A program made the translations under genes and the position numbers. From Geothrix sp. (GTDB lineage: Bacteria; Acidobacteriota; Holophagae; Holophagales; Holophagaceae), in the NCBI RefSeq assembly GCF_030219325.1, contig NZ_CP126625.1, positions 620,001 through 684,000 on the forward strand: a DNA stretch of 64,000 nt, read 5' to 3'. A model generated the notes under the pieces. It was not told the DNA's origin. It made no database searches and was given only the letters and a program-made list of their open reading frames with translations. Positions 61,495-62,179 of this stretch are shown in pieces. Every line of letters begins with the position of its first letter. The stretch's first letter is position 1.

Positions 61495-61545
61495 CAAAAA
61501 CGAAGCCGCCTGGCGGCGGCTTCACTGGCGGAGAGAGGGGGATTC
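61495..61545 (-). repeat. Duplicate of tRNA-Ser(GCT) 3' end plus terminator
   Basis: This 51-bp segment is identical to 61689-61739. It holds the 3' half of the T arm, the acceptor 3' strand with CCA and the full terminator of tRNA-Ser(GCT). It begins, in tRNA sense, at GAATCC of the T loop. No 5' tRNA half accompanies it. Confidence 0.9.
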
Positions 61546-61573
61546 CCTCCGGGGCCACCGCCCCGCGGCGTCC

Positions 61574-61672
61574 CCTCCGGCCGCACGAATCACTGGCACG
61601 CCGCTTACGGCTCCGTCAGCCCCCGGGCTGCCGAAGCCTGCGGCTACCTGCCAGTGATTCAGTGATTTCGAA
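61574..61672 (-). mobile_element. Palindromic element next to tRNA-Ser(GCT)
   Basis: In tRNA sense the core opens with a 29-bp arm (61672-61644, TTCGAAATCACTG start) and closes with a 26-bp arm (61599-61574, ending GGCCGGAGG). Inside the arms AATCACTGGCA and TGCCAGTGATT are inverted. A further 28 bp (61546-61573) repeats CCGGAGG before the duplicated tRNA end. Both arms are identical to those of the element at 62038-62116. It carries no ORF. Confidence 0.7.
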
Positions 61673-61695
61673 TCCCCCTGGCCGGCATCAAAAAC

Positions 61696-61717
61696 GAAGC
61701 CGCCTGGCGGCGGCTTC
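61696..61717 (-). terminator. Terminator of tRNA-Ser(GCT)
   Basis: GAAGCCGCC (61696-61704) pairs with GGCGGCTTC (61709-61717) around a 4-nt loop; TTTTT follows on the minus strand (61694-61690). Confidence 0.85.
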
Positions 61718-61719
61718 AC

Positions 61720-61812
61720 TGGCGGAGAGAGGGGGATTCGAACCCCCGGTACTGGTTTACCCAATACACTCGCTTAGCAGGCGAGCCCGATCGGCCACTC
61801 CGGCATCTCTCC
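61720..61812 (-). tRNA. tRNA-Ser (anticodon GCT)
   Basis: A 93-nt gene including an encoded CCA. The acceptor stem GGAGAGA pairs with TCTCTCC, the anticodon loop CTGCTAA reads AGC/AGT codons, and a long variable arm marks a class II tRNA. The T arm contains GGTTCGAATCC. It faces tRNA-Ser(TGA), with the two 5' ends 83 bp apart. Confidence 0.95.
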
Positions 61813-61895
61813 AAGGCCTCCCAGATTACCGTTCCGACCGGGCTGGCACAAGGCTTCTTGCCCGGAGCCGCGCCCACGCTCCAAGATGGAGGCAG

Positions 61896-61983
61896 GGAGA
61901 GTTGGCCGAGTGGTTGATGGCGTCAGTCTTGAAAACTGAAGACGTGAAAGCGTTCGGGGGTTCGAATCCCTCACTCTCCGCCA
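61896..61983 (+). tRNA. tRNA-Ser (anticodon TGA)
   Basis: An 88-nt gene including encoded CCA. Acceptor GGAGAGT pairs with ACTCTCC, the anticodon loop is CTTGAAA (TGA, reading TCN codons) and a long variable arm is present. The T arm has GGTTCGAATCC, the same point where its 3' end is duplicated downstream. Confidence 0.95.
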
Positions 61984-61988
61984 CACCA

Positions 61989-62010
61989 GCGCCCCGCGAA
62001 TGCGGGGCGC
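61989..62010 (+). terminator. Terminator of tRNA-Ser(TGA)
   Basis: GCGCCCCGC (61989-61997) and GCGGGGCGC (62002-62010) form a perfect 9-bp stem with loop GAAT, followed by ACTTGTTT. Confidence 0.75.
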
Positions 62011-62037
62011 ACTTGTTTGAATGCGGGGAGTGCGGGG

Positions 62038-62116
62038 TTCGAAATCACTGAATCACTGGCAGGTAGGCCCCGCCGCAGGCGATCAGGGCCGTGCCAGTGA
62101 TTCGTGCGGCCGGAGG
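62038..62116 (+). mobile_element. Palindromic element next to tRNA-Ser(TGA)
   Basis: Shares its first 29 bp (62038-62066) and last 26 bp (62091-62116) exactly with the element at 61574-61672, in the same sense relative to its tRNA. The inner 24 bp differ. AATCACTGGCA and TGCCAGTGATT form inverted repeats. It ends CCGGAGG directly against GAATCC of the duplicated tRNA end. No ORF is present. Confidence 0.7.
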
Positions 62117-62179
62117 GAATCCCTCACTCTCCGCCACACCAGCGCCCCGCGAATGCGGGGCGCCTCTGTTTGAATGCGG
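62117..62179 (+). repeat. Duplicate of tRNA-Ser(TGA) 3' end plus terminator
   Basis: The first 47 bp (62117-62163) equal 61964-62010: the T-loop 3' half from GAATCC, acceptor strand, CCA and terminator hairpin. The next 16 bp match at 13 positions. No 5' tRNA half is present. Confidence 0.9.

Follow-up and report, generated by a model that had tools for sequence, protein, structure and literature searches.

tRNA-linked repeats (TLRs) have been described in Escherichia coli since 1978 (Egan and Landy 1978; Rudd 1999, both as cited in PMC8144298). According to the account in PMC8144298, 22 such repeats lie at ten loci, with one to five units per locus, and the end of a repeat is identical over 18-19 bp to the tRNA or rRNA gene just upstream; most are given there as having no known function, and three yield small RNAs (sRNAs) that bind Hfq and CsrA. 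Our full-text literature search, with most subscription journals outside its reach, found no account of TLRs outside the enterobacteria. Here we analyse a window of 64,000 nucleotides from Geothrix sp. (Acidobacteriota; Holophagaceae), taken from NCBI RefSeq assembly GCF_030219325.1, contig NZ_CP126625.1, positions 620,001 to 684,000, in which each gene of a divergent tRNA-Ser pair is followed by a short palindromic unit (Table 1). By following such units through the genome, the genus and the phylum, assisted by an examination of E. coli K-12 DNA, we conclude that the Geothrix repeats are a lineage-wide variant of this known class.

The two elements have the same order of parts: host 3' end, terminator, left arm, palindromic core, right arm and second terminator. 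The initial annotation had reported a second copy of each tRNA's own 3' end and terminator, and remeasurement bears this out, the direct repeats being 56 nt long (96% identity, spacing 194) behind tRNA-Ser(GCT) and 63 nt long (95%, spacing 153) behind tRNA-Ser(TGA). The longest exact copies are, as had been stated, 51 nt and 47 nt, and both open with the T-loop sequence GAATCC, 20 nt ahead of the end of the tRNA; likewise the 29- and 26-nt arms said to be shared between the cores lie inside two stretches of 33 nt that agree at 97% and 94%. That anatomy was right as far as it went, but it overlooked an inverted copy of the host 3' end before each core, here called the left arm. The further statement that the cores contain no ORF fails literally, as 16 mechanical ORFs of 31-304 aa overlap positions 61400-62250 on both strands; among those crossing the elements, we saw none with a claim to being an element gene. 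Decay has reached the left arms (13 nt in one element, 18 of 21 nt in the other) but not the right copies, which are perfect, and the two arms may therefore date from different events. By eye, the neighbours of the tRNA pair are a RadC-like ORF and a TetR-like regulator ORF (62196-63110 and 60800-61341, both on the minus strand).

Table 1. Parts of the two elements and their host genes, in positions of the window
Feature	Positions	Strand	Basis or remark
tRNA-Ser(GCT), host gene of element 1	61720-61812	-	ARAGORN; Rfam RF00005, 54.7 bits
Element 1 proximal copy: last 20 nt of tRNA, trailer and terminator hairpin (61696-61717)	61684-61739	-	direct repeat
Element 1 left arm: inverted host T-stem/T-loop (AGGGGGATTCGAA, read on the tRNA strand); acceptor part lost	61667-61679		13 nt, inverted repeat, score 26
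Element 1 core, type A	61546-61666	-	R1 match, 148 bits
Element 1 core, long hairpin	arms 61649-61660 and 61587-61598		second hairpin adjoins right arm
Element 1 right arm (61526-61545, host positions 57-76), copied trailer and terminator (hairpin 61502-61523)	61490-61545	-	
tRNA-Ser(TGA), host gene of element 2	61896-61983	+	ARAGORN; Rfam RF00005, 61.3 bits
Element 2 proximal copy: last 20 nt of tRNA, trailer and terminator hairpin (61989-62010)	61964-62026	+	direct repeat
Element 2 left arm: inverted host 3' end, 18/21 nt	62023-62043		by eye; score 27 in downstream search
Element 2 core, short type A: hairpin arms 62050-62061 and 62092-62103, without second hairpin	62044-62116	+	R1 match, 91 bits
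Element 2 right arm (62117-62136, host positions 57-76), copied trailer and terminator (hairpin 62142-62163)	62117-62179	+	

The inverted copy offers a measure that is blind to the core: the reverse complement of the last 38 nt of a tRNA is compared with that gene's own downstream 350 nt, and a score of at least 26 counts as a pass. In the window genome (3.73 Mb; 47 Rfam tRNA matches, 45 distinct genes tested) 17 of the 45 genes carry such a copy, compared with 0/45 for reversed queries, so the window repeats are not due to chance. The hosts are Ser (4), Pro (3), Met (2), Arg (2), Val, Gln, Thr, Glu, Asp and His, and two units stand behind Ser-GGA. Upstream, 2/45 genes pass the inverted query, being the two neighbouring Ser genes of the window, and 2/45 pass the direct query. 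The same test is passed by 9/43 tRNA genes (of 47 matches) in a second Geothrix genome, G002, and by 5/37 (of 49 matches) in a third, G020, and all three counts remain the same with tRNAs masked and a downstream stretch of 300 nt. At this threshold the isoacceptors differ among the three: Cys passes only in G002, Val-GAC only in the window genome, and Asp in the window genome and G020. Small samples from two sister families gave 2/9 (G027, with 1/9 in the reversed control) and 0/12 (G030), and in nine genomes of other groups, drawn from the chance matches of the split-T-arm scan described below, 0/97 tRNAs pass (tRNAs masked; 97 of 318 tRNA matches tested).

The cores of the genus are of two kinds, type A and type B, the latter behind Pro, Arg, Met, His, Asp and other tRNA genes, and the two are mixed in Val and one Met. 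A likeness of type B to integron attC sites, suggested by its GTTC/GAAC boxes, was considered and dropped, the fit to the attC consensus being poor. For type A we built a model, R1, from 33 units including those of Ser, Gln, Gly, Glu and Cys, with tmRNA units left out. Over 396 Acidobacteriota genomes it matches in 34, namely all 26 Geothrix genomes sampled, 7 of 13 other genomes of the family and 1 of 357 elsewhere, and its E-values are low at several hosts (Ser 8e-34, Gln 6e-27, Gly 1e-24, Cys 8e-13). The loci first returned had a same-strand tRNA upstream in 28/30 cases; after more loci were fetched there were 106 matches on 73 loci, of which 96 were followed. A tRNA gene lies upstream within 1200 nt of 82 of these 96 core matches (within 60 nt for 66), the hosts being Ser, Gly, Gln, Glu, Cys, Val, His, Asn and Met. 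The other 14 comprise eight behind tmRNA (RF00023), three behind the cut-off 3' end of a tRNA or tmRNA gene, as judged by eye, and three without an assigned host (L374, L380 and L370). At the three cut-off loci, L384, L372 and L229, the host 3' end has been severed by DNA inserted upstream, and the displaced 3' end still stands directly before the repeat. tRNA-Sec had been considered as host of the loci without an ARAGORN tRNA and was dropped, as Rfam gives tmRNA. Behind the window genome's own tmRNA (L403, positions 210261-210650 of the genome, minus strand) a short hairpin stretch (GGCCAGGTAGGCGCC...CAGCGCCGTGGCC) lacks clear arms but is similar to a portion of a type A core. Some cores, at L058 behind tRNA-Met (1874400-1876600 of the window genome), L020 and L023, have a further palindromic repeat (CTGACTCGG...CCTTCGGGCGG...GTCCTATCC) nested inside them, which to the eye has the look of a REP-type repeat belonging to the genus.

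The arms follow the host. Their boundaries were read in 82 distinct units, which gave 44 readable right arms and 36 readable left arms: the right arm matches the host for exactly 20 nt in 32/44 and for 18 nt in 6/44, and the left arm for exactly 23 nt in 30/36. Cores, on the other hand, may resemble each other across hosts, with identities of up to 85-93%; in comparisons such as Gln/Ser and Gln/tmRNA they are about 85% alike throughout, yet each unit has the arms of its own host. Hence the core has moved from one host to another, or been swapped between them, with the arms written anew. How often this happens can be gauged from the nearest relative of each of 93 cores, leaving out copies that share both host and genome, and with host labels assigned by hand for 14 units without an ARAGORN tRNA. 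The nearest core sits at the same host in another genome for 57/93 (shuffled mean 6.9, maximum 15) and at a different host for 36/93, two of these (L372 and L370) only through an incompletely named host. Those 57 make descent or exchange within a locus the usual course and host change the exception.

Within loci, copies may also have been evened out. The two Ser-GCT copies of the window genome agree at 54/56 positions and match the orthologous copies of a relative, G013, at 51/56 and 49/56, a result in favour of later homogenisation here; this is not general, since the two copies of G013 itself agree at only 48/56. Tandem amplification is seen behind Ser-GGA of G020, where an array with a period of 197 bp has its three units standing between four identical copies of 56 nt.

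These comparisons bear on what the initial annotation had made of the locus, namely twin elements of what may be a non-autonomous mobile class that copies its host's tRNA 3' end. The two window cores are indeed related, but they are more than twins, considering the 17 of 45 tRNA genes genome-wide. A non-autonomous class at tRNA 3' ends is borne out, in that the units are genus-wide, their presence varies among species and their cores are homologous while their arms are host-specific. Arms widespread away from tRNA genes, named as a finding that would count against the idea, did not turn up: for 93 of the 96 followed core matches the upstream neighbour is a tRNA gene, a tmRNA gene or the cut-off 3' end of one. 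The comparison with relatives that had been proposed gave an empty Ser-TGA site, the orthologue in G013 carrying no element. Mobility is a probable reading of the homologous cores at different hosts, tempered by the predominance of locus descent or exchange. That the class is new finds no support, as the E. coli repeats share the property (PMC8144298) and display it in the K-12 DNA that we checked.

The units are non-coding TLR elements confined to tRNA and tmRNA 3' ends, and on balance we think it probable that their arms are written from the host gene onto a core that occasionally moves to another host. A unit consists of an inverted host 3' end (in type A mostly reaching position 54), a conserved two-hairpin core and a direct host 3' end from about position 57/58 to CCA, often with the host terminator again. 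Units would spread now and then to other tRNA genes, and their arms would be rewritten from the new host, either through DNA copying at insertion, with template switching at the palindromic T arm, or through conversion afterwards. Having a second 3' end and terminator would keep the tRNA gene working, and recombination between the direct copies may delete or multiply units.

A kept RNA function is the main rival to this explanation, although we hold it doubtful: processing at the copied tRNA 3' end would turn read-through transcripts into a small structured RNA, a case already made for RrA, RrB and RrF in E. coli, whose precedent is in its favour (PMC8144298). Also in its favour are a conserved GGTA internal loop and a core that in many type A units measures exactly 122 nt between the arms (72-151 nt in others). 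The stems, too, change strongly on both sides. We scored 33 aligned sequences on one member's fold, adjusted by hand to comprise an outer arm helix, a long hairpin and a second hairpin, and also ran RNAalifold; in this model 90.7% of cells are paired and 27 of 55 pairs show two-sided change, figures that include the arm helix, which changes with the host. Two-sided cells number 192, compared with 18-60 for slid partners, and 0/500 shuffles reach 192; further pair types are not above background, 91/500 shuffles reaching the observed number. The two-sided stem changes could also reflect selection on an RNA, and we do not claim the covariation as proof at the RNA level because template switching can yield the same pattern. 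In the predicted fold of element 2, the left and right arms pair into a helix like an acceptor and T stem with a GCCA overhang, and this fold beats 200/200 shuffles; in that of element 1 the left arm is unpaired, the folded stretch having begun inside the arm. G.T pairs make up 3.8% of standard pairs, as they do in tRNA acceptor stems (3.8%), but this share counts one conserved G.T pair and falls to 2.2% without it, and so decides nothing. GNA triloops account for 63 of 225 three-base loops, a raw count to which we give no weight. Against an RNA function, a hairpin of -10 kcal/mol or better is found in 65/65 host-unit spacers tested, with a TTT run in 49/65, so the main transcript should end before the unit. 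Presence also varies by isoacceptor between species, and a processing signal that any tRNA end could supply leaves it unexplained why each unit matches its own host.

Less likely still is a purely mutational origin, in which replication slippage and template switching at the palindromic T arm would duplicate tRNA 3' ends in tandem along with inverted pieces, the cores being by-products under local conversion, without mobility or function. In agreement with such a process, the arms are host-derived, tandem copies are identical in G020 and near-identical in the window genome, variant cells are mostly two-sided (192, vs 34 G.T), and in a Crocinitomicaceae genome a tRNA-Val 3' end and terminator are duplicated with no related core by eye. 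What it does not account for is that one model fits cores behind unrelated hosts and that cores at different hosts share the identities given above, from which it follows that the core itself spreads; and the complete lack of passes among the 97 tRNAs of nine other genomes means that no universal error is at work. Integrase remnants, that is, prophages or islands shrunken between attL and attR at a tRNA 3' end, are very improbable, for although each unit stands between direct repeats of its tRNA's 3' end, and inserted DNA does by eye use the same gene ends in the genus (L384, L372, L229), simple integration yields neither an inverted arm nor a copied terminator, one core family occurs at many different hosts with arms that differ with the host and no common attP, the three insertions lie upstream and leave host 3' end and unit together, the window cores of 73 and 121 nt are too short for an integrase gene, and a phage or plasmid origin was dropped since the ten matches listed from each of the phage and plasmid searches (with 111 and 161 further records) cover the tRNA genes and reach no more than 25 nt past them.

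The same anatomy is met beyond the phylum. A core-blind scan for a split T arm over 84,980 genomes returned 38 stretches, of which 21 have a tRNA no more than 99 nt upstream, three are units on contigs without a tRNA and 14 look like chance. The 21 belong to Geothrix and relatives, to other records titled Acidobacteria, to two Candidatus Aerophobetes metagenome-assembled genomes (MAGs) and to an unclassified MAG, WY5.bin104. Of the 31 tRNAs tested in the WY5 genome (from 46 matches), 14 pass in one orientation or the other, one of them, Thr, being a 43-nt copy of another kind, compared with 1/31 in the reversed control; in one Aerophobetes genome 3/25 tRNAs pass. Right copies of 20 nt were found in 5/10 (WY5) and 2/2 (Aerophobetes). 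R1 matches SZAS-17 (Acidobacteria) with an E-value of 8e-11, but the Aerophobetes and WY5 units only at 0.0036 to 0.33, values that are aided by similar arms and too weak to establish common descent of the cores. At L296, behind tRNA-Val(TAC) in a Crocinitomicaceae genome, 12 nt of the tRNA 3' end and the terminator are duplicated around another stretch, with a score of 24, below threshold; this is possibly a candidate repeat of the same class in Bacteroidota.

To carry the favoured explanation, host-written arms on an occasionally moving core, beyond Geothrix is a tentative step. TLRs may possibly be widespread mobile elements that own only their core, with both ends rewritten from whichever tRNA or tmRNA gene they reach (as far as position 54 in the inverted copy, from 57/58 in the direct one), and the E. 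coli repeats may be relics of the same process. If so, each copy would bear terminal repeats made by its host, and Geothrix would be a place to watch the process; a mobile element with confirmed host-written ends could target many genes without a fixed end sequence. For decades the E. coli TLRs have stood without an origin and, mostly, without a function. Geothrix turns this into a comparative problem, asking when units appear, when the host changes and whether both arms change together, and it offers the material: inverted copies behind more than a third of one genome's tRNA genes, tmRNA units in relatives and many sequenced species. For annotators there is a warning as well, in that part of a tRNA 3' end is no sure sign of an island.

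Among described systems, REP and REPIN palindromes and integron attC sites are short non-coding palindromic units that keep their structure while their sequence changes. Their ends belong to the element, whereas the ends of the window elements match the host gene. Integrative elements in tRNA 3' ends, as treated in PMC9897764, use the same part of the gene and leave a duplicated 3' end; the window elements differ from them in having no integrase, a length of 150-200 bp, an inverted arm, a copied terminator and no common end sequence.

Closer are two groups of E. coli RNAs that derive from TLRs. The RtT RNA (RF00391; rttR), from the tyrT-linked TLR, resembles the Geothrix units in its inverted T-stem (GGGGAAGGAT) before the core, its direct copy from position 58 and its tandem units; RF00391 is absent among the 25 Rfam matches at E<=10 on positions 61300-62400 and was found three times in an E. 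coli control, and rttR is marked as REP-containing by RepRanger in PMC12306157. The sRNAs RrA, RrB and RrF, from 5S-linked TLRs, share with the Geothrix units a place between two terminators and a copied host 3' end, which we saw at rrfB of K-12; they differ in their 5S host, and PMC8144298 reports that they bind Hfq and CsrA.

We examined 11 chosen stretches of K-12 with 46 gene rows, one of which is an ARAGORN call absent from the annotation, and in which neighbours can see one copy. A 3'-end copy lies within 350 nt for 13/46 rows (Tyr, Lys, Arg, Pro and 5S), it is 18 or 19 nt long at 11 tRNA-linked places, and at lysQ, lysV and proK the terminator is copied too. An inverted arm at a score of at least 26 appears in 4/46 rows at three places, proK reaching 24. 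Kinship of the cores, which lies outside the TLR definition used here, was not found, R1 giving no match at E<=1 against these stretches. In what the definition does cover the two systems agree: both window elements lie immediately behind a tRNA gene (at 37 and 44 nt), their ends are identical to that upstream gene over at least 20 nt, where E. coli has its 18-19 bp, and units number one to several per locus, with one at each window locus, two at Ser-GGA of the window genome and three in G020. The window features are thus almost certainly TLRs, set apart from those of E. coli by their phylum, by tmRNA hosts, by an inverted left arm that is both commoner and longer, and by an abundance that takes in 17 of the 45 tRNA genes of a single genome.
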